64,000 nucleotides of DNA from Thermococcus indicus. Lineage in GTDB: Archaea > Methanobacteriota_B > Thermococci > Thermococcales > Thermococcaceae. The stretch's first letter is position 1; every line of letters starts with the position of its first letter. The stretch spans positions 1,743,041 through 1,807,040 of the forward strand of contig NZ_CP040846.1 in the NCBI RefSeq assembly GCF_006274605.1. Direction: 5' to 3'. Below are positions 3 to 43,678 of this stretch, one piece after another. The position numbers were made by a program, and so were the translations under genes. Below the pieces are notes generated by a model. The model made no database searches and was not told the origin of the DNA. It was given only the letters and a program-made list of their open reading frames with translations.

Positions 3-917
3 GTTGCGAAGGAGTACCCTTTCATCAGAGTAATCCGCGTTGAGGGCGGCGGCAGGGGAAAGAGCTACGTCCTGAACTACGGCTTAAGGCTGGCCAGGGG
101 GGAGGTCATAGCGGTCTACGACGCGGACAACAGACCAGAGCCCGGGGCGCTCAAGGCTCTGGTGGCGATGCTGAGCGATGAGACACCCGCGGTTACCGGA
201 AAGGTCCGGACGATAAACTGGGACAGGAACGTCCTCACGCGGTTCATATGCATGGAGTACCTCTACTTCCAGCTGGCCGGCCAGAGCGGAAAGAGCAGGC
301 TCTACAAAACCGCGGTGCTCCCAGGGACCAACTTCGTAATCAGAAAAGACCTGCTCGAAGAGCTCGGCGGCTGGGACGAGGAAGCGCTTGCAGAGGATCT
401 GGAGCTGTCATTCAGGATAATTGCCCTTAGAAAGAGGATAGCCTACAACCCACTCGCCGTCACCTGGGAGCAGGAGCCCGAGAGCTGGCGCGTGTGGTTT
501 AGGCAGAGAACCAGGTGGGCGGCCGGGAACGTCTACACCGTGAGGGAGCACATAAAGAGGTTCCACGAGATTCCAGGCTGGGGCCTGCGCTTTGACCTGC
601 TTCTCACTCTGATGGTGTACTATCTCCTGGCGATAGCGGTCATAGTGGCTGACGTGGCTTTTGTGCTCCTGGTTCTGACTTCGAGCGGTACCACCTGGTT
701 CACCAGCTTCGTTCTGAGCTTCGTTTACGTATCATTCCTGCTGGAGATATTCGCCGGCCTCTACGACGGAAAGATAAGGAGCGTTGGCTGCTGGCTCCTC
801 GCGCCGCTCATGTACTACACCTACTCCCAGATATGGATATTCATTTCGCTAGCCGGCCTGTGGGAGGCTGGAAAAGCCAAGAAGGTATGGTACAAGACCC
901 CGCGGACGGCGGTTTAG
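3..917 (+). CDS. Family 2 glycosyltransferase, membrane-anchored (5' end outside window)
   Basis: The frame is open from base 3 to the stop at 917, so the N-terminus lies upstream of the window. The visible part has a DAD metal-binding motif near base 120, an AEDLELSFR acceptor-site motif and a QRTRW motif, the QxxRW signature of processive GT2 enzymes (cellulose/hyaluronan synthase type). Three hydrophobic segments follow in the last 110 residues, so the protein probably sits in the membrane and polymerises or transfers sugar from a nucleotide-sugar at the inner face. The substrate cannot be told. The stop overlaps the convergent sfsA stop by 4 bases. Confidence 0.88.
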   Translation, partial: VAKEYPFIRVIRVEGGGRGKSYVLNYGLRLARGEVIAVYDADNRPEPGALKALVAMLSDETPAVTGKVRTINWDRNVLTRFICMEYLYFQLAGQSGKSRLYKTAVLPGTNFVIRKDLLEELGGWDEEALAEDLELSFRIIALRKRIAYNPLAVTWEQEPESWRVWFRQRTRWAAGNVYTVREHIKRFHEIPGWGLRFDLLLTLMVYYLLAIAVIVADVAFVLLVLTSSGTTWFTSFVLSFVYVSFLLEIFAGLYDGKIRSVGCWLLAPLMYYTYSQIWIFISLAGLWEAGKAKKVWYKTPRTAV

Positions 918-1621
918 AGCTCTATCCCCAGACTCGGCCTCTCAAGAACGACCCTCCCATCGGGCAGGAGAGAGATGCTGAGCGCGTGGATTTCAACGCC
1001 GGCTTTTTGTGCCTCCCTAAGGAGCCTCGCTATCTCCGGATCCCCTTTCTCGTACGGCCTGAACTTCTCAACGGCAGGCATCGCGCCGATGAAGAAAATC
1101 ATAGCCCTATTCCCGGCTTTCGCAAGTTCGATCAGCTCCTCAATGTGCTTCTGTCCCCTCAAGCTCGGGCAGTCCGGATACATCGCGTACTCGCCCTTCC
1201 TTCCCCCGCGCAGGACGGCGCTCTTCATCTCGGCGTAGACCTCGCCCTCCGGGCACTCAAAGAGGTAATCGAGGCGCGACTTGCCGACGCGGATTTCCTT
1301 CCGCTTTATCCTGCAGTCCTTCAGCCAGGGGACCATATCGAGCTCGACTGCCCTCTCAAAGGCCCTGGCCTGGGTTCGGGTGTCTATCACCGCCCCCCTT
1401 CCGTCCAGGTCCTCAAAGGCGACCAGAACGAAGTCCGTCTTTCCGCCGGTCTTGGGCGTGCAGAAGGCCTTCCTACCCGGAACCATGAACTCCTCCAAGC
1501 GACCTGTGTTGGTCACTAAGGCCCTTCTCTCCTCACCGCCAACCTCAACCAGCGCCACGAAGCGGTTGAGCCTTTTGAGGAAGGTACACGGGATGACCTT
1601 GAGCTTGAACAGGACGTGCAT
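914..1621 (-). CDS. sfsA: SfsA family protein (sugar fermentation stimulation protein homologue)
   Basis: A 235-residue protein with the features of the SfsA family: an N-terminal OB-like part (RLNRFVALV, NTGRLEEF) and a C-terminal nuclease-like fold with a conserved DYLFE...EMKS segment resembling a PD-(D/E)xK active site. Its length is normal for the family. In E. coli SfsA was linked to maltose metabolism and DNA binding; the archaeal role is not established and the nuclease idea is an inference from the fold. It is transcribed divergently from the broken ATPase gene at 1719 and converges with the glycosyltransferase. Confidence 0.85.
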   Translation of the reverse strand: MHVLFKLKVIPCTFLKRLNRFVALVEVGGEERRALVTNTGRLEEFMVPGRKAFCTPKTGGKTDFVLVAFEDLDGRGAVIDTRTQARAFERAVELDMVPWLKDCRIKRKEIRVGKSRLDYLFECPEGEVYAEMKSAVLRGGRKGEYAMYPDCPSLRGQKHIEELIELAKAGNRAMIFFIGAMPAVEKFRPYEKGDPEIARLLREAQKAGVEIHALSISLLPDGRVVLERPSLGIEL

Positions 1622-1718
1622 GGTCTAATCTCAGGGGAGGTGGATATAAGTTTTTGGAACATCCAAACCCTCGGAAACTTTATATCCAGTTACAGGATAA
1701 TCCAGTTGGTGGTTACAA

Positions 1719-3075
1719 ATGTGGTTCTACGACAGGGAGCGCGAGATGGAATCCCCCAGGAAGGCGCTCGAACTGTCCCGCTCCCGGCTCGTGGTTGTGA
1801 CTATAACCGGACGCCGGCGAGTTGGAAAGACGAGGGCTGGTCAGGGAGTTTTTCAAAAGGGAGGGCGTTGATTATCTCGACTTCTTCATTCCAGTCAAAA
1901 GCGAAAAGCTCATCCTTGAGGACTTCTCTAGGGAGCTCAGGGCAAAGTTGAGGTATTCTCCGCGGTTTGAGACCTTCTCCGAGATGTTTGAATACCTGGA
2001 AGTGGCCGACGTCGAGGCAGTTTTCTTTGACGAGTTTCAGAACGTTCTCCGGGTAAATCCAGCCATAGCCTTCGACCTCCAGCGCTTCATAGACAGAAAC
2101 CGGGATAAGCCGCTCCTCATAATTCTATCGGGTTCATACCTTGGAATGATGAGGAAACTGTTGACCTCCAGGAAAGCCCCCCTCTACGGCAGGAGCACTC
2201 TCTTCATAGAACTGCAACCCCTGCGTCCAAGATGGGTTTTCGAGATGCTCAAAGATCTTGGAATCACAGAGCCCGTCCAGCAGGTTGAGTTCTATGGTAT
2301 TTTCGGCGGAATCCCAAAGTACTACGAACTCTTGGAGGTGTTCGAAGCCGGCAATCCTCCGGACCTCATTGTTGATGCGGTTCGGTACTCCACCCTACTT
2401 ACGGCCGAAGGAGAAGGCCTTCTCATAGACGAGTTCGGTAAGGCGTACAGGACTTATTTCTCCATCCTCGATGCGATAGCCTCCGGAAAGAACAGGCTCG
2501 TTGAGATTGCTAACGCCGTGGGGATGAAGCCGGGCAGCATAACGAAGTACCTTGAGGCCCTGGAAGACTACTATGGAATAATAACCCGTGAAAGGCCCCT
2601 CCTCGGCGGCAGACGTTCGAGGTACGTAATCAGCGATTACTTCCTGAACTTCTGGTTTAGTTTGATAGAACCGAACCGCAGGCAGGTTGAGGCAGGGGAC
2701 TTTAATGCCTTCAGAAGAAACCTCGAAGGGAAGTTCCCGGAGTTCTTTGGGAGGGTCTTTGAGAGGGTCGTTCTCGACCTCCTGCACGACCTGAACGGGG
2801 AGCTAATTACCTTTGATAGTATCGGCCCTCATTGGGGGAGAAACTACGAGATAGACCTCGTTGCCATCAACAGGGAAGAGAACATCGCCACGTTCATAGA
2901 GACGAAATGGAAAACCAACGTCGATGGCCCGAGGGAGATCGGCAGGCTCATCGCCAAGGCCCAAAACGCCCCGTGGAGAGGGGAAAAGCGCTACCTTCTC
3001 ATAGCAAGGGGCTTTCGCCGGGAGTGTGCCGACTGCATTACCATTGATGGAGTTCTGGAGCACCTAAAACCTTAA
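1719..3075 (+). pseudogene. Archaeal P-loop ATPase with DUF234-type C-terminus, broken by a one-base frameshift
   Basis: Reading from ATG 1719 gives an N-terminus with YDREREM and the Walker A motif GRRRVGKTR. The frame then fails at the GGG run at 1834-1836: one extra G shifts translation out of frame. From there the +1 frame runs open to 3075 with a Walker B (VFFDEFQN), a winged-helix part and a C-terminal EIDLVAINREEN...ETKW segment like the DUF234 nuclease-like domain. Removing one G gives a continuous protein of about 451 residues, the normal family length. A TATA-like sequence (about 1677-1684) and GGTGG ribosome site (1707-1711) precede the ATG. It may be a pseudogene, a sequencing error, or a truncated protein restarting at ATG 1822 without its P-loop. 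Confidence 0.82.
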
Positions 3076-3110
3076 ATATCCCAGACATGACCATTTAGAT
3101 GGAAATCTAA

Positions 3111-4175
<1,065 letters not shown>

Positions 4176-4274
4176 ACCCCTCCTATTTTCCCTATTGTTT
4201 CGGCCCTTTCCCATCGCCAAATTTAAAAACCCGTTCGAGTACATTCTGGGGACGAATGCACAAGGGTGCGCCCC

Positions 4275-4973
4275 ATGGAATCAAGGACGGCAGAGGCGCC
4301 CTTCTCGGCAGGGTGGGAAGCGCTTGTGGGGGTAGCTTCAAGGCCGGAAAGGGTTTTCTCGACGTTTCCGTACGAGGCGGAGGTAACCCAGAGGGGGGAG
4401 AAGGTTTTCGCCAGGTTTGCCATCAGGAAGTTTCTGCTCAGGTTCGAGTTTGAGGGGGTCCTCGAGTTCACATTTAACGAACCCCACGTCACCTACGTCG
4501 TTAAAGGACCCAGGGGACTTCTGATACTCTCCTTCGCCGCAGAAGGGGGGCTCATCGCGAAGGCCTCCGCCGACATCCCCGGTGAGAGAATGCTGGGCAA
4601 GAAGCTGGCCCATCTCGCCGAAGGAGCGGGGCTCAGTTTGGCGAAGATGGCCGAGAGCCACGGCATCATAGCGGCGAGGGCCTTCGGCTCACCGAGGGAC
4701 TTTATAATCAGGAACTTCGAGCCATCCCTCCTGGCCCACGCGATAAGGTACGTCCGGTTCAATATCGGAAGCTCCTCGTTCACCCTCAGGGGCGAGAACG
4801 GAGGGGAGTGGTTCACGGTCACGGTGGAGAACGACATTGTGAGAAGGGTCGAGTACGGGTCGGATTCCGGAAGTTCGATCATCGAGGTGGAGAAGGGGAT
4901 TCTAAACGTGGGGGCGGAGGATTTTGAGGGAATAGATGCGAGGGGAGAGTACGTCATCAGGATCAGGGAGTAG
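4275..4973 (+). CDS. Unrecognised conserved-looking protein, 232 residues
   Basis: I do not recognise the family. The protein is rich in beta-type alternation (for example RFEFEGVLEFTF, YVVKGPRGLLILSF) with an amphipathic middle (GKKLAHLAEGAG) and no signal peptide or membrane segment, so it is probably a soluble intracellular protein. ATG 4275 follows a GGGTG element; GTG 4266 in the same frame is possible. A TATA-like TTTAAAAA lies at about 4221-4228. The codon use matches the neighbours. Its 3' end overlaps the convergent membrane gene by 11 bases. Confidence 0.7.
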   Translation: MESRTAEAPFSAGWEALVGVASRPERVFSTFPYEAEVTQRGEKVFARFAIRKFLLRFEFEGVLEFTFNEPHVTYVVKGPRGLLILSFAAEGGLIAKASADIPGERMLGKKLAHLAEGAGLSLAKMAESHGIIAARAFGSPRDFIIRNFEPSLLAHAIRYVRFNIGSSSFTLRGENGGEWFTVTVENDIVRRVEYGSDSGSSIIEVEKGILNVGAEDFEGIDARGEYVIRIRE

Positions 4974-5295
4974 TCCCTTCGCTTTCTTCCGTCTCCGAGG
5001 TCCTTTCGGAGGGCTCCTCTGGGGAATTCGAGCTTCTGGAGACCACGGGGATCGCAGACTCACTGGCGGCTTCCTCCCTCTTAGCGAGCTCTTTCTCGAA
5101 CCTGTTCCACTCGTACCAGAAGAACAGAATCCCAAGGATCACTCCGAGGAGGATGAACGGGAATCTGGAGGGTAGCGGGAGACCACGGTGCCACCGGTAG
5201 AGCAGGTAGTTCTGATAGAGGAACAGGTACCCCAGCCACGTCACCACGAGGGCCTCAACCGCGTATTCGATGAACCTGCCCGTCTTCTCGTCCAT
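4963..5295 (-). CDS. Small membrane protein with charged C-terminal tail
   Basis: A 110-residue protein with two hydrophobic segments near residues 10-30 and 45-65, followed by a long tail rich in Glu, Ser and Lys. The ATG at 5295 is chosen because AGGTGAC sits 5 bases upstream on this strand; the frame continues farther upstream without a better start. It is divergent from the XPD-like helicase, with only 49 bases between the start codons, so the two promoters must overlap. The function is unknown. Confidence 0.68.
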   Translation of the reverse strand: MDEKTGRFIEYAVEALVVTWLGYLFLYQNYLLYRWHRGLPLPSRFPFILLGVILGILFFWYEWNRFEKELAKREEAASESAIPVVSRSSNSPEEPSERTSETEESEGTTP

Positions 5296-27983: not shown

Positions 27984-28772
<789 letters not shown>

Positions 28773-29339
28773 ATGGTCAAGCGCGGCCTATTCGTCGGCC
28801 GGTTCCAGCCGGTTCACAACGGCCATATAAAGGCGCTCGAATTCGTTTTTTCACAGGTTGATGAGGTGATACTGGGCATCGGAAGCGCCCAGGCGAGCCA
28901 TACGCTGAAGAACCCCTTCACGACGAGCGAAAGGATGGAGATGCTGATCAGGGCGCTGAACGAGACGCACCTGGCGGACAAACGCTACTACCTGATTCCG
29001 CTCCCGGACATAAACTTCAACGCCATCTGGGCGACCTATGTAGTGAGCATGGTGCCGAGGTTCGACGTCGTCTTCACTGGCAACTCTCTGGTTGCCCAGC
29101 TCTTCCGCGAGAAGGGCTACGAGGTCATCGTCCAGCCGATGTTCAGGAAGGACATCCTCTCTGCGACCGAGATCAGGAAACGCATGGTTGAAGGACAGCC
29201 CTGGGAGGAGCTCGTGCCCAAGAGCGTGGCCGAGTTCATCAGGGAGATAAAGGGCTGCGAAAGGATAAAGATGCTCGCGACGAACCTCGAAAAGAACGAG
29301 AAGGAGTTGCAGGCGCCGATAAGAATTCCGGAGTTCTAA
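28773..29339 (+). CDS. nadM: Nicotinamide-nucleotide adenylyltransferase
   Basis: A 188-residue NMN adenylyltransferase of archaeal type, joining NMN and ATP to give NAD. The nucleotidyltransferase signature GRFQPVHNGH is at residues 9-18, and the second motif LSATEIRKRM is near 128-137. Length and motifs match the family. It starts directly after the SAM hydrolase stop. Confidence 0.95.
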   Translation: MVKRGLFVGRFQPVHNGHIKALEFVFSQVDEVILGIGSAQASHTLKNPFTTSERMEMLIRALNETHLADKRYYLIPLPDINFNAIWATYVVSMVPRFDVVFTGNSLVAQLFREKGYEVIVQPMFRKDILSATEIRKRMVEGQPWEELVPKSVAEFIREIKGCERIKMLATNLEKNEKELQAPIRIPEF

Positions 29340-29461
29340 CCCCCTTTAGCACTGTCCTTTACTCCCTTATCACTAATCGAGTTAGCTTTTTAACTGTTCT
29401 TAGGTAGAAACATAACGGGTAAATATGAAAGTCACGACATGTTTTTCGGCCGGTGAAGGAG

Positions 29462-30130
29462 ATGTCCATAATATTCACCCAACTCCACGAGGAAATTAAG
29501 TATACAGCAAAGCAGATTGGGCTCAACCTGATTTCCATCCCATGGCTCATGGCGGTTATCTACCTCTTCACCAGCTGGACTCCCCTTTCGAGCGCCGCCA
29601 TTGTCGGAACCTCCAGCTTCTCCATCGCCGTTATAGCCGCTCTATTCTTTGGAGGTTCTATAGTCCGGGAAAAGTTCCTTGGAATCCACGAGATGCTCCT
29701 CAGCCTTCCGCTCGACCCGGTCAGGCTCATGCTCACGAGAACCCTCGCGAGCTTCGTTATTGGAATAACCGGAATTGCACTGGGGAGTGCCGTGGGATGG
29801 TTCATCACACTCCACGTGAGCACTCCAATACCCCTAACAACTGTGCTCTTCGGGATTCTAATCTCGGCTCCAGCGCTCTTCAGCTTCACTTTTTTGGTGA
29901 TTTTAATAACGCTCCTCTTTCAGTCAAGGTACCTCGACATAGCGAAGTTCATCATTTTCTTCACGGCATATTTTGCACCCGCGTACATTCCCAAGTACTT
30001 CGGAGTTGGCCTCTCGTTGGAGACCGCACTGGTGTTATCGCTCCTGCTGTCTATAGGGGCACTCGCGGTCTCGTTTTCGATTATCCGTCCCTTAGGGGAG
30101 AAGCTTGCCGAGAGGATAGTGTTAGTGTGA
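29462..30130 (+). CDS. ABC-2 type permease subunit 1 of the RiPP locus
   Basis: About 222 residues with six predicted membrane helices after a short cytosolic N-terminus (HEEIKYTAKQIG). It is clearly paralogous to the permease at 33210: both share EVKYTAKELG-like starts, a central SPALFSFTFL/ISCIPLLFAF helix, a YFGVGL loop and an ERI(V/I)LV end. ATG 29462 lies 6 bases after GGTGA; a GTG at 29453 is in frame. With its partner and the ATPase at 33910 it likely forms a heteromeric exporter or immunity pump. GC content is ordinary, unlike the peptide and rSAM genes. Confidence 0.82.
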   Translation: MSIIFTQLHEEIKYTAKQIGLNLISIPWLMAVIYLFTSWTPLSSAAIVGTSSFSIAVIAALFFGGSIVREKFLGIHEMLLSLPLDPVRLMLTRTLASFVIGITGIALGSAVGWFITLHVSTPIPLTTVLFGILISAPALFSFTFLVILITLLFQSRYLDIAKFIIFFTAYFAPAYIPKYFGVGLSLETALVLSLLLSIGALAVSFSIIRPLGEKLAERIVLV

Positions 30131-30247
30131 GGTAGCGACGCCTTTGATATCCAGTGGGGCTGCATAAGTCCAAAACAATGAAAACTACCTAAAGTTGTAA
30201 AGTTTTACGTTTTTGGCATTTCTAAAATAGAGTTCTTGAAGAATTAC

Positions 30248-30256
30248 TTTTTTTTT
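30248..30256 (+). terminator. Oligo-T terminator after permease 1
   Basis: A run of nine T residues follows the permease gene by about 120 bases, just after a small palindrome TTCTTGAAGAA (30233-30243). Archaeal RNA polymerase ends transcripts at oligo-T tracts, so the peptide operon downstream is probably transcribed on its own. Confidence 0.5.
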
Positions 30257-30299
30257 AAAAATTTAATAACTCCATGTTGCTAACCCTTAGTTTAGGAAA

Positions 30300-30311
30300 G
30301 AATTAAATACT
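30300..30311 (+). promoter_or_regulatory. Putative promoter of the peptide-rSAM operon
   Basis: AGAATTAAATAC gives a purine-rich BRE-like part followed by TTAAATAC as TATA box, about 25-30 bases ahead of the GTG at 30332. This would place the transcript start almost at the ribosome site GGTGATC (30332-30337 region). Confidence 0.5.
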
Positions 30312-30331
30312 CAAAATACCATTAGATATCG

Positions 30332-30484
30332 GTGATCCCTGTGGGATGGCTGTGCTACGCGATATGTGGAACAATTTGTGTTGGGGGTTGTACAGCAGCT
30401 TGCGGTGTTACTTCAGGGGCAGCACTGGCCGTAGCTTCCCAAGGATTAATGGCAGGAGGAACTGCAGCAGCATTTGGGCGTTGA
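30332..30484 (+). CDS. Putative sactipeptide-type RiPP precursor, C-x3-C repeat
   Basis: A 50-residue peptide with cysteines at 8, 12, 16, 20 and 24, a strict every-fourth-residue register, followed by a hydrophobic tail rich in Gly, Ala, Ser and Thr with almost no charge. The GW at residues 5-6, the C-x3-C spacing and the tail recall the beta peptide of thuricin CD, a sactipeptide whose cysteine sulphurs are linked to alpha carbons. An in-frame TAG at 30323 prevents a longer N-terminus, so the leader is at most 4 residues (start GTG 30332), or 1 if GTG 30341 is used; the near absence of a leader is unusual. The radical-SAM gene starts 13 bases later. Too short for many gene finders. Confidence 0.75.
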   Translation: MIPVGWLCYAICGTICVGGCTAACGVTSGAALAVASQGLMAGGTAAAFGR

Positions 30485-30497
30485 AAGGTGAGAAGCA

Positions 30498-32009
30498 GTG
30501 TCTCAGTTCATTCGTTCTTTTACTTTTTTCCGAACGAATTCTGGTAACGAATATCTATTCGATGATATAACCGGAGTGGTACTTCAAATTCCGGCGGAGA
30601 TTAGCTCACGAATTAAACATATACTCTTCGATAGTACAACACCTGCTGAGGCCTTAATAAAGGTTTACAAAGAAGCACCTGAGGAAAATAATTATGCTAG
30701 AATTTACAAAATTTTAGAAACTCTGATCTCTAATTTTGGAGCATTTTACAGGCTTCCTATGAAGATCAGTACCTCTGAAATAGAAGAGGGTATTTTGCAG
30801 TATATGATCCTAAGAGACGGGCTTTATGAGCTACTTCTGGAAGTTACTGATAACTGCAATTTCAGATGTCGGTATTGCGTATTCGGGGGTAATTATAAAG
30901 ATTTCAGGACCCATGGATATTCGTTCATGACACTGGAAACTGCAATAAAAGCCATTGACCTGTACTTTGAGTACCTAACGGAGGGAGCGTTATTGAATCC
31001 AATGAGAGAGCCAACTATAGCTTTCTATGGAGGAGAACCTCTTCTTAACTTTAAACTTATTGAAAAGTGTGTTGAATATGTGAATCAGACTTATTCTGAT
31101 GAATTTGCCCCTCGATACACAATTACAACTAATGCTTCCTTGATAACTAAAAAAATAGCAGAATTCCTTGTCAAAAATGATTTTGATGTGTTTATAAGCT
31201 TGGATGGACCTCAAGAGGAACATAATCGGAATAGAGTCTTGGCTAACGGCAGAGGTACTTTTGACCTAGTGATAAGGGGCATATCTAACCTTAAGAATGC
31301 CCAGAGAAAACACGACGGCTCTAACAAGGAGTATTTCGCCCTAATCACATATGATCCAAAGTCAAATTTATATGATATCACGAAGTTTTTTGGTGAGGAA
31401 TCACCAATAAAGCCAATATTTGCAAATCCCGTACGTTCTATGGGTACTACGTATTATTTGCCATTTACTGAAGAAGACTACATGAATCACGAGAAGATGT
31501 TACGGGAACTCTTTAAGAAATTCCTCAATGATTCTCGGAACGGTCACAAGTCAGCCTTTTCTGAAATTTTATTTGGTGGTCCTGGATCTTTAATGTTCTA
31601 TCGGAACATGTTAAGCCGTAAGAATCCAACGGCAATATTCACCTCAACTTGTATTCCAGGGTTTAAATGGTATGTAACCACCGGTGGGAAGATTCAGGTA
31701 TGTGAAAGGGCACCCTATAGCACCATAATCAGAGACGTCAATAAAGGTCTGGATTTCTCTGCAATAAAAACACTAATTCAGAGGTACTTCAAGTTGATAG
31801 TGGATAAATGCAATTACTGTGGCCTAGCCCACAGTTGCGCAAGATGCTTTGCATACATGGATTCAGAGGACTGTACTCTCTTTAAACGCTGGGTGATTGA
31901 CGGATTAAAAACAGCATTTACAATATATGAAAATAATCCCGAGTATTTTGAAAAAAGATTGTCAGTGCTAAAAGAAAAAGGTGGAATCTATGCCGTGGAA
32001 ATTCTTTAA
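30498..32009 (+). CDS. Radical SAM/SPASM peptide maturase, canonical
   Basis: A 503-residue enzyme. The N-terminal 100 residues resemble a PqqD-like peptide-recognition domain (SGNEYLFDDITGVVLQIPAE). The radical SAM cluster motif CNFRCRYC is at residues 120-127, and AFYGGEPLL follows near 175-183. The C-terminal SPASM region has C-x12-G-x4-C (GGKIQVC) and then C-x2-C-x5-C-x2-C with a later Cys (CNYCGLAHSCARC). SPASM enzymes such as AlbA and TrnC/TrnD form thioether links in sactipeptides. GTG 30498 follows AGGTGAG. The gene is clearly AT-rich relative to its surroundings, hinting at transfer. Confidence 0.9.
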   Translation: MSQFIRSFTFFRTNSGNEYLFDDITGVVLQIPAEISSRIKHILFDSTTPAEALIKVYKEAPEENNYARIYKILETLISNFGAFYRLPMKISTSEIEEGILQYMILRDGLYELLLEVTDNCNFRCRYCVFGGNYKDFRTHGYSFMTLETAIKAIDLYFEYLTEGALLNPMREPTIAFYGGEPLLNFKLIEKCVEYVNQTYSDEFAPRYTITTNASLITKKIAEFLVKNDFDVFISLDGPQEEHNRNRVLANGRGTFDLVIRGISNLKNAQRKHDGSNKEYFALITYDPKSNLYDITKFFGEESPIKPIFANPVRSMGTTYYLPFTEEDYMNHEKMLRELFKKFLNDSRNGHKSAFSEILFGGPGSLMFYRNMLSRKNPTAIFTSTCIPGFKWYVTTGGKIQVCERAPYSTIIRDVNKGLDFSAIKTLIQRYFKLIVDKCNYCGLAHSCARCFAYMDSEDCTLFKRWVIDGLKTAFTIYENNPEYFEKRLSVLKEKGGIYAVEIL

Positions 32010-33213
32010 GCTATACCCCTGGGTATATTACTGTAAGGGAACAAATGGAGCAACACTCTACGACTGGTTGAACGGGAAAATACTGAGTCTAAACAATGAG
32101 CAGGCAAAAGTGCTGGAAAAACTAATAAATGGGGTCTTTGAGGAGGATATTCTCAAGCAGGATAATATACTGGCCAAGTTGAGGGACTTTGGGTTTGTTT
32201 CTTCGGATAATATTTACATTGACAATCTCACCTTAGGTTCAAAACTTCAAAAAGTGATGCAATTTATAAATACTTTCCATGTACAGAGACTTGATTTAGT
32301 ACTTAACACGCCATGCGACAGATATGAGTCATGTCCCATAAGAAATTCTATGGTTGTATCTCATGCATGTGAATCCTGCTTAGGATGTGCAAAAAAGGAT
32401 ATGCCAGACAGAAATATTAACCCTAAAAAACTGGCAGAGCTGTTAAATGTGTTTAGGCCTCAGGTGGTGACTCTAAGCGGGGGAGAACTGTTTAGTGATG
32501 TTCCTTTAGTCAATAATGTGTTATCTCTGCTTTTAGAGTCTAAATATCCCGATATAGCCGTTTTAATAATGCCTTTGCATTCCATTGTGAAATTCAGAAG
32601 TGAAGTTGCTAAACACACGAGTATGTTTTTAGAACGGGGCAAAAAGCTTGCACTGACTGTTGTACTTACCAAGCATGAGTTCGAAGGCATCCCGAAAATC
32701 TTAGGAATGATGAAAGAACTCAATATTACTCTGACATTTGTGGCGTATATGAATCTTGATAAACCCCCTGCAGAGATACCAGAATTGAACAGCTTACAAA
32801 AAACTGTCACAATAGTATCCGCTTTCTATTCTCTCAGCGGGCGGAACGTTCTTGAGAATCTTGAGAAATTTTTAAACATGCAATACGTGAATCCCTACAT
32901 AGTTAACTCTCCAGCAATTGAGAACTTAATAAATGCCATCGAGTATGGCTATGCCAGTTGTTTATATGGAAATCTCATGATAGACCTTCCTAATGGGATT
33001 ATAACTCCATGTAAAGGATATTGCCTCCTGAATTATATCCAGAAAGAATTAAACCGAAAAGCACTTCAGAAGGTTATGTTGTTATGGGAAGACCCATGCC
33101 GAGATTGTTCCCTAAAAGGAGCGTGCACTATATGCCGTTCGATAGTTGAATCCATTAATATCACTCCCCACTCATGTCCAATATGGGAAAAGCCTTGGAG
33201 GTTTAAGAAATGA
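31990..33213 (+). CDS. Radical SAM/SPASM-like protein with non-canonical cluster motif
   Basis: A 407-residue protein. The start resembles a PqqD-like domain (GATLYDWLNGKILSLNNEQA). Where the radical SAM CX3CX2C is expected, cysteines occur at 109 and 115 (CDRYESC) and at 127, 130 and 133 (CESCLGC, a CX2CX2C). A GGE motif (TLSGGELFSD) follows near 164. The C-terminal SPASM pattern is complete (C...G-x4-C, C-x2-C-x5-C-x2-C, later Cys). It may be a divergent maturase or a partner that lost SAM chemistry. ATG 31990 follows AAAGGTGG, overlaps the first maturase by 20 bases, and the stop overlaps the next start (ATGA), so the genes are translationally coupled. Confidence 0.85.
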   Translation: MPWKFFKLYPWVYYCKGTNGATLYDWLNGKILSLNNEQAKVLEKLINGVFEEDILKQDNILAKLRDFGFVSSDNIYIDNLTLGSKLQKVMQFINTFHVQRLDLVLNTPCDRYESCPIRNSMVVSHACESCLGCAKKDMPDRNINPKKLAELLNVFRPQVVTLSGGELFSDVPLVNNVLSLLLESKYPDIAVLIMPLHSIVKFRSEVAKHTSMFLERGKKLALTVVLTKHEFEGIPKILGMMKELNITLTFVAYMNLDKPPAEIPELNSLQKTVTIVSAFYSLSGRNVLENLEKFLNMQYVNPYIVNSPAIENLINAIEYGYASCLYGNLMIDLPNGIITPCKGYCLLNYIQKELNRKALQKVMLLWEDPCRDCSLKGACTICRSIVESINITPHSCPIWEKPWRFKK

Positions 33214-33890
33214 CTCACAAGATGATCAAATCTCCTTTAATGGAGGAAGTTAAATACACTGCGAAAGAGCTGGGAACCCTTGGAGTGAGCGCCCTGGCGA
33301 ACGTAGCTATAATCTACACGGTAATCCCCATTCTCAGCCCCGGTCTTGAGAATGGACTAACCCTTGGAATGCTGGCAGTAGCGTTCTCCCTCATGGTCAG
33401 TATCATCGTAACCTCCCCCGTATCATGGGCCAAGACGATAGGAACACTGGAGATGCAGCTCTCAGGCCCCTTCTCTCCTCGGGGAATCCTTCTCCTAAAG
33501 GCTGTGGTCGCTTCCATCTATGGACTCCTCCCTATCGGGGGAGGCCTTGCAATTGGAAGCATAGTCAGAACGTTTATTGGAGCGAAAACCACCCCGTCCT
33601 TGCTATTCTTTACCATGATCTCCTGCATTCCCCTGCTCTTTGCCTTCAGTCTGCTGTTCACACTGTTGTGTGCCCTCGTGGAGCAGAAACACCTCGATTT
33701 TCTGAAAGTTGCTGTGTTCATGGTAGCCTACCTCCTTCCCCTGTACCTTGCGAGATACTTTGGAGTCGGCCTTTATCTCTCAAGCGCCCTGTTCATCGCT
33801 CTTCTCATCCTGTCGCTTGTGCTGGCAGTTTACTTTGCAGTACTCAAGTACTATGGAGAAAGGCTCTCGGAAGCCATAATCTTGGTGTAA
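33210..33890 (+). CDS. ABC-2 type permease subunit 2 of the RiPP locus
   Basis: A 226-residue protein with six predicted membrane helices, paralogous to the permease at 29462. The ATG overlaps the stop of the second maturase by 4 bases, binding it to the peptide operon. Base composition returns to that of normal Thermococcus genes from here on. It probably pairs with permease 1 and the downstream ATPase to export the modified peptide or protect the producer. Confidence 0.84.
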   Translation: MTHKMIKSPLMEEVKYTAKELGTLGVSALANVAIIYTVIPILSPGLENGLTLGMLAVAFSLMVSIIVTSPVSWAKTIGTLEMQLSGPFSPRGILLLKAVVASIYGLLPIGGGLAIGSIVRTFIGAKTTPSLLFFTMISCIPLLFAFSLLFTLLCALVEQKHLDFLKVAVFMVAYLLPLYLARYFGVGLYLSSALFIALLILSLVLAVYFAVLKYYGERLSEAIILV

Positions 33891-33909
33891 AATATGGTGA
33901 GGTGATTCC

Positions 33910-34806
33910 ATGATAGTGCTCGAAAACGTGAGGAAGACCATTAGAGGAAAGGAAGTCCTCCGCGGGATAAGCCTGACTGTGAAGCCCGGCGAAATCCACG
34001 CCTACCTCGGCCACAATGGAGCCGGCAAAACAACAACCTTCCGCCTGATTCTCGGCATCCTCGTCCCGGACTCCGGCAGGGTAGAAGTCCTCGGCGTCAA
34101 TCCCCTCAAGAACCCGGAGGTGAGGGCCAAAATCGGCTACCTGCCCGAGTACGACCTCCTCTACCCAAACCTCACGGTTCTTAACAACCTCAGGCGCTAC
34201 GCCCTGCTGAAGGGAGTTTACGATGAGAAGGAGCTTAAGGACCTCATTGAGTTCTTCGAGCTTGAAGGGTACGCTAAAAAGAAGGTCTCAGCCCTCTCAA
34301 GCGGGACCCGGAGGAGGGTTGCGATGGCGAGGGCCTTCCTTGGGAGTCCAGAGGTTCTAATCCTCGACGAGCCCACGAGGGGCCTCGACCCCGAATGGAG
34401 GCTTAAATTCAAGCGGTTTTTGGGGGAATACGCGCGGGAAAACAACGCCTCAGTTATTTTCTCGACGCACATACTGAGCGATGTCGATGAGGTGTGCGAA
34501 AACGTCACTGTAATCATGGAGGGCAGAATACTCTTCTCGGGAAGCCTTGGGGAGTTCAAAGAACTCGCCCCAAGCGGCGAGACTGTCCTCGTGAAGGTGG
34601 CAGAAGTGAAGGGGGCCCTTCGGGTGCTTAGGGAAAACGGTTACTCACCCGAGCTGAGGGGTGAGTACATAGTGCTGGAGGACGCCGAGTCTCCGGAAAT
34701 CAACGCCCTCCTCGTGGGGGCCGGCCTGAAGGTTGAGGAGGTTAAGAGAAAGGAACCGAGCCTTGAGGAGGTTTACACCATGCTCCACGGGAGGTTGGCA
34801 CAATGA
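33910..34806 (+). CDS. ABC transporter ATPase of the RiPP locus
   Basis: A 298-residue ATP-binding subunit: Walker A GHNGAGKTT (about residues 35-43), Q-loop region YLPEYDLLYPNL, signature ALSSGTRRRV (a variant of LSGGQ), Walker B VLILDEPTRGLDP and switch FSTHILSD. The extra C-terminal 80 residues match ABC-2 drug/peptide exporter ATPases (CcmA/NatA type). The ribosome site GAGGTGATTCC lies just before the ATG, 19 bases after permease 2. It would energise the two permeases. Confidence 0.93.
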   Translation: MIVLENVRKTIRGKEVLRGISLTVKPGEIHAYLGHNGAGKTTTFRLILGILVPDSGRVEVLGVNPLKNPEVRAKIGYLPEYDLLYPNLTVLNNLRRYALLKGVYDEKELKDLIEFFELEGYAKKKVSALSSGTRRRVAMARAFLGSPEVLILDEPTRGLDPEWRLKFKRFLGEYARENNASVIFSTHILSDVDEVCENVTVIMEGRILFSGSLGEFKELAPSGETVLVKVAEVKGALRVLRENGYSPELRGEYIVLEDAESPEINALLVGAGLKVEEVKRKEPSLEEVYTMLHGRLAQ

Positions 34807-34971
34807 AGCCCCGGGAAGTGGCACTCTGGAAGTTCCTTAAACCTTGTCTTCCCGGATAATGAGTTCATCAGTCTCTTCCTCCGGGCCATGCGGGTGGTCA
34901 GAACAGAAAACGCCGAGGCGTTAATAAGGCACGTCCTTAATAAGATGGGCAGGTTCAGCATAGCCGGGTGA
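34803..34971 (+). pseudogene. Internally deleted remnant of a gene coupled to the ABC ATPase
   Basis: ATG 34803 overlaps the ATPase stop (ATGA) and starts a plausible protein N-terminus (MKPREVALWKFLK) that hits a stop after 18 codons. In the next frame, without delay, a convincing C-terminus (DNEFISLFLRAMRVVRT...LNKMGRFSIAG) ends at TGA 34969-34971. The middle of the gene is missing, so an original translationally coupled gene, probably a third transporter component, has been lost by deletion. Confidence 0.6.
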
Positions 34972-35004
34972 AAGTTGAGGACGGGGGTTTAATTTTCTCC
35001 CCAA

Positions 35005-35242
35005 TTAGTCCAGAATTTCGTAGCTTTTGACTGCTGAGCTCTTCTCAAGCTCCTCAAGCCGTGACGTTATTTCAATGTATATTATCGTACACTTTTAGAA
35101 ATCGCTCCTTTGGTTTTGGCAGTAGTAGTCCGTTTCCGTGGGGATTCTTTCTAAGCAGATATATCGTATGATCCGCTGTTGTCACCTCCATGGTAAATGT
35201 CAAGAAACGGCACCATTCTTCTCCACCCTCTTCTGTGATGGC
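35005..35242 (-). pseudogene. Decayed small gene, frameshifted
   Basis: On the minus strand a frame open from 35242 encodes a credible sequence (EEWCRFLTFTMEVTTADHT, then YLLRKNPHGNGLLLPKPKE) and stops at 35072. The neighbouring frame then gives IEITSRLEELEKSSAVKSYEILD and a stop at 35005. A single indel near the AAAA run around 35090-35096 would join the two. No family recognised. Confidence 0.45.
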
Positions 35243-35300
35243 TTAATTACACAGTCTGGGACTTAAATGGCTTTCCTGCTTGGAGGAAGGTTTAAATAAC

Positions 35301-35314
35301 ATAATCGCGATTAT
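35301..35314. promoter_or_regulatory. Palindromic operator at the ATPase promoter
   Basis: ATAATCGCGATTAT is a perfect 14-bp palindrome. It sits between a TATA-like TTTAAATAAC (35291-35300) and the ATG at 35321, right at the expected transcription start, an ideal place for a dimeric repressor. Confidence 0.55.
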
Positions 35315-35320
35315 ATAACC

Positions 35321-36697
35321 ATGATTACGCATAGGTTCATTGACAGGGAGGAGGAGCTGAAAGCCCTGAGGAACGCCTTTGAAAGGGGAGCACTCATCGT
35401 CGTCTACGGCAGGAGGAGGGTCGGGAAGACGAGGCTCCTCGTGGAGGCGTCAAAGGACTTCAAGACCCTCTATCACCTCTGCAAGGAGGAAGAGGTCGGT
35501 GAAACCCTGAAAACGCTCAACGCAAAGCTCCTCTCCCTCACGGGTGACGTTTCCCTCCTAAAACATCCAATTCGCTCCTTCGAGGAGTTCTTTGAGAGGG
35601 TTCCCGATGATGCGGTGGTCATCTTTGATGAGTTCCAGATTCTTGCCAAAAACCATCCAAGAATCCTCGGGGTGATTCAGGAGCACCTCGACTTCAGGAG
35701 AAGCGGGAGCATCGTCCTCTGCGGCTCAAGCATCTCGATGATGGAGGAGCTTGTTTCCTACGGGAGCCCAATCTACGGGCGAAGAACGCTCTCGCTGAAG
35801 GTCAAACCGCTGAAGTTCCGGCACATCGGCGGGTTCTTTCCAGGTTACAGCCTTGAAGACCTCGTCAAGGTCTACGGCATGGTCGATGGAATCCCCGAGT
35901 ACCTGCTTCGCCTTGACCCGTCCCTTTCCCCTGAGGAGAACGCACGCGAGGAGTTCTTCGGCAGGGGCTTCCTCTATGATGAGGCCGAGTACCTGCTCCG
36001 CTACGAGTTGAGGGATTTGAGCACCTACAACACAATCCTTGAGGCGATAAGCTACGGGCACCGCTCCTTTGGTGAGCTAAGGAACTCCACCGGAATCGAC
36101 GGTTCAAAGCTCACCAGATACCTTAGCATACTCATCAACCTCGGTATCGTCGGTAGGGAAGCGCCGGTGACGGAGAAGCCGAAGAAGCGGACGAGGAACT
36201 CCCGCTACTTCATAGCGGACAACTACTTTGCCTTCTACTACACCTTCGTCTACCCCTTCAAAGAGAGCATAGAGCTCGGCCTTCCGGAGGATGCAGTTGA
36301 AAACTTCGAGAGGAACTTCAACCGCTACCTTGGCTCCGTCTTTGAGGGGATAGCAAGGGAGTTTCTGATTGAGCTCAACAAAGCTCAAAAATTGCCTTTC
36401 CGCTTCACGAAAATTGGAAGATGGTGGAGGAAAGGAGAGGAGATTGACCTGGTGGCGTTGAATGAAAGGGAGAGAAAGGCCCTGTTCGTGGAAGTCAAGT
36501 GGAAAGACCTCAGCGGGCGGGAAGCGCGGGGGATTTTGAGGGACTTGGAGAGAAAGGCCGAGCTCGTGGGACTCGATGAATGGGAGAATTTTTACGGGCT
36601 GGTGGCCAAGGATGTTAGGGGGAAAGAAACCCTCAACAGCGAGCGTTTTTCGGTCTGGGATTTGAAGGACTTTGAGGGCCATTCAATCAAAAGTTGA
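35321..36697 (+). CDS. Archaeal P-loop ATPase with DUF234 nuclease-like C-terminus
   Basis: A 458-residue protein of the same kind as the broken gene at 1719. It has an FIDREEELKAL start, Walker A GRRRVGKTR (residues 31-39), Walker B VVIFDEFQIL, a GSSISMMEEL segment, a winged-helix region (SFGELRNSTGIDGSKLTRYL) and a C-terminal EEIDLVALNERERKALFVEVKW motif of PD-(D/E)xK type. The class is abundant in Thermococcales; roles in genome defence or toxin-antitoxin behaviour have been suggested but are not established. The promoter carries a 14-bp palindrome. Confidence 0.87.
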   Translation: MITHRFIDREEELKALRNAFERGALIVVYGRRRVGKTRLLVEASKDFKTLYHLCKEEEVGETLKTLNAKLLSLTGDVSLLKHPIRSFEEFFERVPDDAVVIFDEFQILAKNHPRILGVIQEHLDFRRSGSIVLCGSSISMMEELVSYGSPIYGRRTLSLKVKPLKFRHIGGFFPGYSLEDLVKVYGMVDGIPEYLLRLDPSLSPEENAREEFFGRGFLYDEAEYLLRYELRDLSTYNTILEAISYGHRSFGELRNSTGIDGSKLTRYLSILINLGIVGREAPVTEKPKKRTRNSRYFIADNYFAFYYTFVYPFKESIELGLPEDAVENFERNFNRYLGSVFEGIAREFLIELNKAQKLPFRFTKIGRWWRKGEEIDLVALNERERKALFVEVKWKDLSGREARGILRDLERKAELVGLDEWENFYGLVAKDVRGKETLNSERFSVWDLKDFEGHSIKS

Positions 36698-36699
36698 AA

Positions 36700-37872
36700 C
36701 TACGGTGAGATTATCCCTTTTTTCGCCAATCCCCAGAACATCACTCCAGACACCAAAAACAGGGCTAAGCTAACCGCATACGGTAGCGTCGCGTGGACGC
36801 TCGCCAGAGCGCCGACAACAAAGGGCGTGAAGAGGTCGAGGAGCTTCCGGTAACTCGATATAGCCGCGTGGAACTCACTAGCCTTCTCTTTCGGAATCAG
36901 TTTGAACATCCAGGAGCGGTAGAAGGGGAACCAGAGGGTGTTCCCGAAGTCGCCGAGGGCATACACCACCAGCGCCAGCCAGAAGGGCGGTGAGAGGGCC
37001 ATTACCAGCGCGTAGACCGCATTGATGAACATCCCTATCCCAATGACCTGGAAGCCTCTCCCCTTTGGAACCCTCTCGCTGGCATAGGTTCCTATTATCG
37101 AGGCTAGACTGCTCGCACAGGCTATCAGCGTCACCTCAAAGACCGTTTTGTGGAGCACGAAGACGACGTAGTTGATGAGCACCAGCTCCGGGGCGAGCGC
37201 CCAGGCGAGCGTTAGTAAGGCCTCGAAGGCGAGGAGAACCTTGAATTCCCCCACCTTAAACGTGAAGCCCTCTGGCGTTACCCTCTCCTCTTTGCCAACC
37301 GAAGGCAGGAAAAACCAGATGTACGCTACTGTAACGGCTGAGAATAGGCCGAAGAAGATGAAGGCCCAGCGGTAGCTCTCCGGGCCTGGATAAACGTAGC
37401 CGAAGATGTAGCCGAGAATCGGGAAGGTTATTAGGCGGGCCATCTCCGGCAAACGGAGGTGCCAGGCGAATATCTCCTCATACTTGTCCTCAGGATAGAT
37501 TATCTGCTCGTATGCACGGTAGAGGGGGTAGAGCACGGTTGAAAGCTTTTCCACAGTCCTTCCGACGAAGAGGATAACTGGGGCAATTGCTCCTTTCGCG
37601 AGGCCATACAGAACGTAGGCGATGCCGTCTAAGACGTCTATCGCGATGAGGCCCTTCTTGATGTCCCAGCGGTTGAAGAGCCGGCCGAAGAGGTAAGTGA
37701 GAGGGATAGCGACGATGTTGACCGCCGTAAAGAACGCTCCGACCTCAAGGACGGAGTAACCGGTCTCCATGAGGTAGAGCGGGAAGAGTATCCAGACTAT
37801 CAGGCCGGGAGCGATGAGTGTGTGGTAGAGCATGTACGCTTTGGCTTCCCTCGGAATCTCGCTCCAGCGCAT
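36700..37872 (-). CDS. MFS transporter
   Basis: A 390-residue carrier with about 12 hydrophobic segments and the major-facilitator features: a first-half loop (LFGRLFNRWDIKKGLIAID), a large central cytosolic loop (SVGKEERVTPEGFTFKVGEFK) and a symmetrical second half (ASERVPKGRGFQVIG). The substrate is unknown. It converges on the ATPase with 2 bases between stop codons. Confidence 0.88.
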   Translation of the reverse strand: MRWSEIPREAKAYMLYHTLIAPGLIVWILFPLYLMETGYSVLEVGAFFTAVNIVAIPLTYLFGRLFNRWDIKKGLIAIDVLDGIAYVLYGLAKGAIAPVILFVGRTVEKLSTVLYPLYRAYEQIIYPEDKYEEIFAWHLRLPEMARLITFPILGYIFGYVYPGPESYRWAFIFFGLFSAVTVAYIWFFLPSVGKEERVTPEGFTFKVGEFKVLLAFEALLTLAWALAPELVLINYVVFVLHKTVFEVTLIACASSLASIIGTYASERVPKGRGFQVIGIGMFINAVYALVMALSPPFWLALVVYALGDFGNTLWFPFYRSWMFKLIPKEKASEFHAAISSYRKLLDLFTPFVVGALASVHATLPYAVSLALFLVSGVMFWGLAKKGIISP

Positions 37873-41771: not shown

Positions 41772-42275
41772 ATGAGGCGCATCGCGTCGCTCATCCTCGC
41801 CGTGCTCTTGGTCATTGCTGCCGCCCTCAGTTACTCGTACCACCGGCAGGAAAGAGGACTCAAGACCGCCGTGAATGGGCTGTTTGAGGTTTCAAACACC
41901 GCCCTCTTCTGCCTTGAGGACATGGACGCCCTCGGAATCATGCTCGAGAGCAACGTGAGCAATGACGTCCTCCGGGAGAGGCTGAGCAGGTACGATTACT
42001 GCTCTATGATGCTGGAAAAGGCGTCTTTCTCACTCTACTCCATAAATAGGGAGAGGAGGTACTGGAAGCTCCATGTGGCGGCCAGTAACATGGAGGTCTA
42101 CTTCCACACGGCCATGAACAGTCAGAATCCCCGGGAGAAACTACCCGAGAATGTGGAGCTTATCACGGAGATATCCCGGGAAATAAACGCGATACTCCAG
42201 AACGGGGGAGTGGAAGGGCTGAGTGATGCCCAAGCGGAAAAGCTCTTCAATCTGACCCAATCCCTCTCAGGTTAA
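41772..42275 (+). CDS. Unrecognised membrane-anchored protein, 167 residues
   Basis: An N-terminal hydrophobic segment (residues 4-22) is followed by a helical extracytoplasmic domain. ATG 41772 follows CGGTGGTG. A TATA-like CCTTTTAAGG (41734-41743) lies between it and the divergent acetyltransferase. No family is recognised. Confidence 0.68.
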   Translation: MRRIASLILAVLLVIAAALSYSYHRQERGLKTAVNGLFEVSNTALFCLEDMDALGIMLESNVSNDVLRERLSRYDYCSMMLEKASFSLYSINRERRYWKLHVAASNMEVYFHTAMNSQNPREKLPENVELITEISREINAILQNGGVEGLSDAQAEKLFNLTQSLSG

Positions 42276-42346
42276 ATCTTCCTAGTTCACGAGGTGTTCC
42301 ATGGATTTCACTGAAATCTGTAATTGACTTTACTGATACCGCTACC

Positions 42347-42793
42347 CTACAGACCTCGGACTCTCTTAAGCGCTTGGTACAGAGTCTTTCCCAACAGGAA
42401 TGAAACAACAGGCATAATGTATGCTCCAACTATCAGTACCAGACTGTTATCACTGTAGCCAGAATGATTGGAGAGTGAACTAATGACAAATGCAAACACT
42501 AATGTTATCAACGGGATGACCAGTGCCAGTATCCCGAATTCTTTAAGAGATACTTTTGTTTTCCATAGAAATATTAGCGTAAACACTAAAAGTAGCAGTG
42601 TGGGATAGACGAGCTCATAACTTCCCCTGACCAGGTACCTTCCTGAAATCGGATCGTACTGCACTGAGATTAAGGGAATAGCATCCATGGCGTGAGGATA
42701 GTACTGGGCGAGCTTATCTATTCCCAGTATTGTAATTGACCACAGAGGGGATGCAAAGAGCAAAAAGAGGACAATTTTCCAGTAACCCTTCAT
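42347..42793 (-). CDS. Unrecognised four-helix membrane protein
   Basis: A 148-residue protein with four hydrophobic segments (about 5-22, 60-78, 84-104, 112-132). It lies 12 bases after the exported protein at 42806 on the same strand, so they are co-transcribed. Codon use is AT-richer than the surrounding genes. No family is recognised. Confidence 0.68.
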   Translation of the reverse strand: MKGYWKIVLFLLFASPLWSITILGIDKLAQYYPHAMDAIPLISVQYDPISGRYLVRGSYELVYPTLLLLVFTLIFLWKTKVSLKEFGILALVIPLITLVFAFVISSLSNHSGYSDNSLVLIVGAYIMPVVSFLLGKTLYQALKRVRGL

Positions 42794-42805
42794 GGCTGTT
42801 CACCA

Positions 42806-43678
42806 TTATCTCAAGGACGTTTTCTTAATTTTTGTTGCATACCCATCATTGTACGGATTGGAGATGTAGTTGTAGAGGTAGTAGTAGTCTGGAGTTATGA
42901 CCCATGGTGAGGAATAGTATGACCAGACCTTTTCTTCAGCTTGCTCAAAGGAGATGACGTCATGATCTCTGTCTTCATAATGGGCAGAGCCAATAACTTT
43001 TCCGTTATATATCACCCATAGCCTTATGTGGTATCTCGGCCCGAGTGTTCTAGTGGTGGCCATGTCGTCTCCTTCTTCCCATCCACTGCCTCCATATTGA
43101 GGTGGATCATAGATGTATTGACTGGATGCTACCACCCAATCATACCATCCTGCATTGCCAAGTACTTCCTTAACCTCACTCTTTGTCCCACCCTCCCAGA
43201 CTATGTTCACAGGATCTGCTTTTTCATAGTAAATATGACAGATAAGATACCCACATGACTCTAATTTCTTCCAAGTCCACCTTGGTAGATATGGATACGA
43301 CTTCCACCATTGGAATGGATCGTCGCTTGTGGTTATGACTGTTGTTTTATAGTAGATCCTTTTTATAGTTTTACCTATACCCAGAGAGTGTGCCTCTAGT
43401 GGATAGAGTTTTGCCAGAGTTTTCATGTCTATCTTAACCTTTTCAACCCTTGAAAGTTTGTTGACTCCAAATTTGGCTTTTAGCTTATCTCCAGTATATT
43501 CAATTCGCTTGACAAGCTCCCCGTTTTTGTATGTGAGCTCTTCAACAACAAGTACTCTGACGGTATGTTCTTTTGCCCATTCTTCCCAGGAATCCTCGGA
43601 TTTGCCTGCCGCCACAGAGCTAATGAAGCTTAAAACCACTACGCCCAGCAGCAAGATGCTTACTAATTTCCAACGCAT
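42806..43678 (-). CDS. Unrecognised exported protein rich in Tyr and Trp
   Basis: A 290-residue protein with a signal peptide (KLVSILLLGVVVLSFISSVAA, cleavage near residue 24). The mature part is rich in Tyr and Trp (WWKSYPYLPRWTWKK, YYYLYNYISNPYNDGY). Two Cys (CGYLIC) might form a disulphide. ATG 43678 follows GGGGTGAT. The gene is AT-rich, like its downstream partner, suggesting recent arrival. The region upstream to 43930 is very AT-rich and empty. No function can be assigned. Confidence 0.68.
   Translation of the reverse strand: MRWKLVSILLLGVVVLSFISSVAAGKSEDSWEEWAKEHTVRVLVVEELTYKNGELVKRIEYTGDKLKAKFGVNKLSRVEKVKIDMKTLAKLYPLEAHSLGIGKTIKRIYYKTTVITTSDDPFQWWKSYPYLPRWTWKKLESCGYLICHIYYEKADPVNIVWEGGTKSEVKEVLGNAGWYDWVVASSQYIYDPPQYGGSGWEEGDDMATTRTLGPRYHIRLWVIYNGKVIGSAHYEDRDHDVISFEQAEEKVWSYYSSPWVITPDYYYLYNYISNPYNDGYATKIKKTSLR

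Follow-up and report, generated by a model that had tools for sequence, protein, structure and literature searches.

A candidate two-maturase, thuricin-like sactipeptide operon in the hyperthermophilic archaeon Thermococcus indicus

Could a hyperthermophilic archaeon make a sactipeptide, a class of peptide known from bacteria, mostly Firmicutes, whose substrate recognition is thought to be leader-dependent? The question is raised by a stretch of 64,000 nucleotides (nt) from the 2.23-Mb genome of Thermococcus indicus (C1:1743041-1807040, hereafter the window; the genome is G000 in our survey), in which an earlier note had recognised six genes at 29462-34806. All six are present. Five of them form an operon at 30341-34806, in the order peptide, maturase A, partner B, ABC-2 permease and ATPase. 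Judged by sequence comparison, the probable product of this operon is a ribosomal peptide whose cross-links, in the nested-hairpin manner of the sactipeptides thuricin Z and thuricin CD, are formed by radical S-adenosylmethionine (SAM) chemistry. The relevant features are as follows.

30275..30335, + strand: promoter-like block (GTTTANRAAANNNNTAAATA) and Shine-Dalgarno sequence GGTGAYYCC, directly 5' of the peptide and common to four peptide loci
30341..30484, + strand: precursor peptide, 47 residues, GTG start, with homologous frames in other genomes
30498..32009, + strand: maturase A, radical SAM/SPASM protein (PF04055, E 3.8e-15)
31990..33213, + strand: partner B, SPASM protein, ATG start, recognised by its relatives and Cys pattern
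33210..33890, + strand: ABC2b, ABC-2 type permease, 226 residues, paralogue of ABC2a
33910..34806, + strand: ABC transporter ATPase, 298 residues, DrrA/GldA/lantibiotic-protection-like (PF00005, E 6.7e-32)
29462..30130, + strand: ABC2a, ABC-2 type permease, 222 residues, outside the operon but within the same island

The operon is tightly packed: 13 nt separate the peptide from A, A and B overlap by 20 nt, B and ABC2b by 4 nt (ATGA), and ABC2b lies 19 nt from the ATPase gene. Thus, the coupling that had been described from the maturase onward does exist, but it starts at the peptide. The upstream permease, ABC2a, had also been placed in the operon; we exclude it because a 210-nt intergenic region (32% GC), containing the promoter-like block conserved 5' of the peptide in four genomes, separates it from the peptide. 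The block may be likened to a BRE/TATA consensus. No Rfam elements were found at 28000-36000 of the window.

The precursor had been given as a 50-residue peptide starting at 30332. Its homologues in three other Thermococcus-group genomes (G070, G037 and G021) begin with an ATG that aligns with the GTG at 30341, and the conserved GGTGAYYCC sequence precedes the start in all four; the peptide is, therefore, 47 residues long. All four peptides open with MGWLCYA and carry Cys at precursor positions 5, 9, 13, 17 and 21, a period of four (4, 8, 12, 16 and 20 in the 46-residue chain left after Met removal), followed by a C-terminal half rich in Ala, Gly, Ser and Thr. The peptide thereby has the genetically encoded, Cys-rich core of a sactipeptide, with the donor Cys in its N-terminal half. 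Upstream of MGWLCYA, in-frame stops leave no room, or room for at most five residues, in all four genomes, and hence the precursor is leaderless. In this it departs from the general rule that a sactipeptide precursor has an N-terminal leader, which the maturase recognises and which is then cleaved off (PMC8172795).

Several observations indicate that this short frame is a real gene and not a chance one. Between G070 and G037 it differs by 18 synonymous changes and a single non-synonymous one, giving a ratio of non-synonymous to synonymous rates (dN/dS) of 0.009/0.868 = 0.01, a value that argues for strong purifying selection. Across the 94 Thermococcales genomes surveyed, the peptide profile gave five matches with E<1e-8, all linked to the A/B/ABC machinery. 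The earlier note had made its reading depend on conservation of the frame and on the radical SAM genes not always standing beside a different substrate, and on both counts the reading holds. The five-Cys C-x3 repeat was absent elsewhere in 790 kb of DNA translated in six frames, apart from copies of these four peptides. Searches of PDB and of plasmids with the peptide gave no match.

Maturase A combines an intact radical SAM motif (CNFRCRYC) with a seven-Cys SPASM domain (C385-x11-G-x4-C402-x35-C438-x2-C441-x5-C447-x2-C450-x8-C459), and thereby supplies the CX3CX2C motif and auxiliary-cluster Cys expected of a cognate sactipeptide maturase. The dN/dS of A is 0.086. The best named hidden Markov models for A are CcpM (TIGR04068, 222 bits), TIGR04148 (185) and RumMC (NF035951, 171), yet A lies far under their curated cut-offs (500, 300 and 720, respectively) and likewise under that of PapB (NF047865, 137 against 340).

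Where, then, do the two proteins come from? Within the collections searched, from which thzC/thzD and trnC/trnD were absent, the nearest relatives of A and B outside the archaea are one neighbouring gene pair on plasmid pRUMAL03 of Ruminococcus albus. A is 30% identical to the R. albus maturase over 94% of its length (E 2e-75). When the A profile was run against 1284 open reading frames, including more than 20 other radical SAM proteins, this maturase was the next best match at 243 bits, against 98 for the best other archaeal radical SAM protein. The B profile, run against the same frames, next found the 413-residue R. albus partner (E 7e-7; the following match had E 0.09), and hhalign aligned the two with E 1e-6. 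In a phylogenetic tree, A groups with the R. albus maturase inside the Firmicutes maturases (support 99/97), apart from other Thermococcales radical SAM proteins; the placement of the R. albus maturase as its exact sister is provisional, since long branches meet there. The plasmid carries two huazacin-family peptide genes, the radical SAM gene, the partner gene (overlapping it by 4 nt), an ABC ATPase gene and a permease gene, the same peptide-A-B-ABC order as in the window. That two independent genes point to the same locus is strong evidence for shared descent of the A-B pair. A and B have a GC content of 38-39% in a 53% GC window, of which they are the lowest-GC kilobases; together with the tree, this suggests transfer from Firmicutes to archaea. 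Scans of genome contigs with A revealed no relatives, and viral contigs yielded generic radical SAM matches only (~30%).

Similar gene content is found in the thuricin Z/huazacin locus of Bacillus thuringiensis (thzA x2, thzC, thzD, thzE-G), which likewise joins peptide genes, two radical SAM/SPASM-type proteins and ABC genes. In mature thuricin Z, Cys 4, 8, 12 and 16 are linked to residues 38, 34, 30 and 26 (PMC8172795); the archaeal peptide has the same four donors and adds Cys 20. With thuricin CD (trnA, trnB, trnC, trnD, trnF, trnG) the locus shares a second partner and, in A, the seven-Cys SPASM pattern of TrnC (Cx11Gx4C..Cx2Cx5Cx2C..C). The assignment to a thuricin CD/Z-like, two-maturase sactipeptide type is, therefore, well supported by gene order, by the common homology of A and B to one Ruminococcus pair, by the TrnC-type SPASM domain and by the thuricin Z Cys spacing. 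There are differences as well. Compared with thuricin Z/huazacin, the locus is archaeal, has a fifth Cys, no leader and a single peptide gene, its B lacks CX3CX2C, and the huazacin family model is unmatched; thuricin CD has two precursors with leaders. The locus would thus work like a thuricin-type system while missing two usual features, the leader and the radical SAM motif of the second enzyme. The thuricin CD-like identity first proposed accordingly survives in gene order, A/B homology and Cys spacing, and fails on the leader, the second motif and the inclusion of ABC2a.

In the mechanism that we propose, the 47-residue precursor would be translated without a leader and lose its initiator Met, which precedes Gly, to leave a 46-residue chain. 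A, aided by B in a complex like that of TrnC and TrnD, would then join the Cys sulfurs to residues of the C-terminal half. Applying the 9-residue loop of thuricin Z to this chain predicts rungs 4-46, 8-42, 12-38, 16-34 and 20-30 (mature numbering) and a mass loss of up to 10 Da. No protease is encoded in the cassette and none would be needed. The linkage would be of sactionine (S-C alpha) type, although sequence does not reveal which carbon is linked, and the PapB (ranthipeptide) and SCIFF models match A as well. That the same logic yields a different radical SAM cross-link, such as the S-C beta/gamma bond of a ranthipeptide, is nonetheless quite improbable: RumMC and CcpM outscore PapB on A, A groups with a huazacin-type maturase, the Cys register is that of thuricin Z, and the C-terminal half of the peptide has no acceptors in the CX3D/E style that is typical of PapB-type ranthipeptides.

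Partner B is an unusual component. It retains seven SPASM-type Cys and a GGE motif, but in all three intact copies CX5CP(I/V)R stands where CX3CX2C is expected, accompanied by an additional invariant CX2CX2C. Against Pfam, B had no match at E<=1, and against NCBIfam it had none below E 0.09; it is identifiable as a radical SAM/SPASM protein through its relatives and Cys pattern alone; a direct plasmid search with B gave no match, and a genome-contig scan with its alignment found no relatives. Of the two radical SAM enzymes previously proposed, then, the second is indeed a SPASM-type protein, but without the CX3CX2C motif, and so the locus has the two adjacent radical SAM-family proteins and ABC genes of the thuricin CD/Z type while the second protein lacks that type's motif. 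With a dN/dS of 0.18, B is under purifying selection and hence neither a pseudogene nor decaying. TIGR04150, the GG-Bacteroidales pseudo-radical SAM family, was considered for B and dropped, as it was not among the matches at E<=1.

The simplest reading is that B is a naturally catalytically silent partner. In thuricin CD, TrnC and TrnD form a complex in which the radical SAM cluster of TrnC is essential and the radical SAM Cys of TrnD are experimentally dispensable (PMC12093266). TrnD keeps its motif and a three-Cys TWITCH domain, unlike B, which has lost the motif and carries seven SPASM-type Cys. Since the motif is lost and TrnD's own radical SAM chemistry is dispensable, B looks like a naturally dead counterpart that would act as a scaffold without canonical radical SAM chemistry. 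It is conceivable, though we think it doubtful, that B is a genuine non-canonical radical SAM enzyme with its own chemistry, binding a [4Fe-4S] cluster through C108/C114 and one of C126/C129/C132. All three B proteins share the five motif-region Cys and the GGE without variation, and the dN/dS of B would suit this; yet the R. albus partner keeps CDNNCFFC, whose third Cys aligns with an Arg in B, and the precedent of TrnD speaks for a silent protein.

A number of points weigh against a thuricin-type sactipeptide system. To our knowledge all described sactipeptides have leaders, and A and B would have to recognise their substrate without one. The peptide reached the cut-off of none of the NCBIfam RiPP (ribosomally synthesized and post-translationally modified peptide) families, whereas the R. 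albus peptide does; for the huazacin family NF037972 (threshold 35 bits) the R. albus peptide scores 50.1 and the archaeal peptide gave no match. The link between B and the R. albus partner consists of one bacterial homologue and ~185 aligned columns, and a single-sequence AlphaFold model of B was of low confidence (mean per-residue score, pLDDT, 42). Finally, the ABC-2 permease occurs elsewhere without any peptide, which weakens its tie to the product, and the similarity of the R. albus permease to it is marginal.

The earlier note had proposed searching for co-occurrence of the peptide with both maturases, and we found the three together and intact in 3/94 genomes only (the window genome, G070 and G037), in the order peptide-A-B-permease-ATPase at two unrelated chromosomal sites. 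In the window the island is flanked as follows.

28773-29339: NMN adenylyltransferase (NMNAT) gene, left flank
36700-37872: MFS gene, right flank

In G070 and G037 the cassette adjoins a copper-type ATPase gene and has one permease. Footprints persist in at least three further genomes: in G021, G022 and G001 all that is left of B is its C-terminal end, followed by ABC genes, and a weaker trace is seen in G093. The degraded peptide of G001 is fused directly to the last part of B, with open ABC2 and ATPase frames behind it, and is thus a deletion footprint. The distribution of the cassette is patchy; it was apparently acquired horizontally and has been deleted repeatedly.

What do the ABC genes contribute? 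ABC2a and ABC2b are 32% identical; ABC2a scores 23.9 bits with Pfam ABC2_membrane_3 (cut-off 31.6) and has homologues in 22/94 Thermococcales. TIGR03740, the lantibiotic protection ATPase, is among the ATPase's matches, below cut-off, and ATPase and permeases together resemble DrrA/lantibiotic-protection-type systems. They may export the peptide, protect the producer or both; export and immunity are not separable here because the ABC genes also occur without the peptide and beside other RiPP-type genes at the site. For peptide-specific immunity the picture is mixed: G001 keeps the ABC genes intact after loss of the core, and in G021 and G022 the permease is frameshifted after the B remnant. 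They could also be an older, unrelated transporter beside which the RiPP cassette merely inserted, given that ABC2 and ATPase genes stand at the same NMNAT-MFS site in ~10 Thermococcus genomes without this peptide and that the ABC2 tree tracks site more than cassette. We regard this as possible but not probable, as the cassette of G070 and G037 has ABC2 and ATPase genes at its second site too, B and ABC2b overlap, and R. albus has ABC genes at the corresponding place.

Given that the cassette is patchily present, was apparently acquired horizontally and has been lost repeatedly, the most likely role of the product is antagonism toward relatives, the probable targets being closely related archaea. 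Archaeal cell surfaces are unlike bacterial targets, and the product might instead be a signalling peptide or an intracellular cofactor precursor. This we consider unlikely in view of the 3/94 distribution with repeated decay, the interchangeable RiPP-type cargo of the site and the linkage to ABC-2/ATPase genes.

It is tempting to go further and envisage a leaderless sactipeptide system of hyperthermophilic archaea, in which the gene equals the mature hairpin, one active maturase is paired with an inactivated TrnD-like scaffold, and cassettes interchange beside a shared ABC-2 transporter at a Thermococcus RiPP hotspot; we judge this fuller picture evenly poised between right and wrong. If true, the leaderless precursor would mean that substrate recognition has to be modelled differently, and a partner lacking the radical SAM motif would confirm from nature the scaffold role of the second enzyme in thuricin CD-type pairs. 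The stability of hyperthermophile enzymes and peptide may suit structural work on the A-B-peptide complex, and the locus provides a concrete candidate weapon for the Thermococcales, about whose ways of antagonising others little is known. Archaeal sactipeptide and ranthipeptide gene clusters, likewise radical SAM RiPP loci, have been predicted in bulk by an antiSMASH survey (PMC12144867), which mentions no Thermococcus locus and characterises no such product. The literature searched contained no characterised sactipeptide from Thermococcus or other archaea; an earlier mention is still possible.

The NMNAT-MFS site looks like an exchange hotspot for RiPP-type cassettes. In G021 (L042 5575-11491) a truncated MGWLCYA peptide (33 residues) lies there beside an 87-residue Cys-free peptide, a frameshifted unrelated radical SAM gene, a PqqD-like protein, extra ABC genes and the B tail only, forming a mosaic or decaying locus. 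G059 (L118 ~453-4982) has a different RiPP-type cassette: a frame with two repeats of approximately YxPPTIxRxxxRxGPICAPEAHW(K/R)S, followed by a radical SAM protein, a 97-residue PqqD-like protein, a second radical SAM protein, MFS, ABC2 and ATPase. G018 (L111 8587-13450) carries at this site a 488-residue radical SAM protein, a small upstream frame (MEPEVNESTYVVGVLEKVAKVGACGHYNEDAGTFLQLPQIHIEKS), MFS, two ABC2 and ATPase genes, possibly another RiPP cassette. At the second site, dS between G070 and G037 is 0.87 for the peptide and 0.68 for A but 0.05 for B, which points to recombination within the cassette between A and B.

Elsewhere, the window genome encodes a second RiPP-type radical SAM/SPASM protein (G000:C1:38714-39292, L031; 484 residues), PapB/nif11-maturase-like, common to several Thermococcales and, at 282 bits, just under the PapB cut-off of 340. 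A 251-residue nucleotidyltransferase-like gene, intact in G022 (L044 5650-6405), has left a remnant at 34803-34980 of the window, and a flanking-gene protein of the window gives a near full-length alignment to Pyrococcus horikoshii PH0463 (E 4e-133). A further low-GC stretch (40-43% against 53%) at 42251-43500 is possibly foreign DNA.

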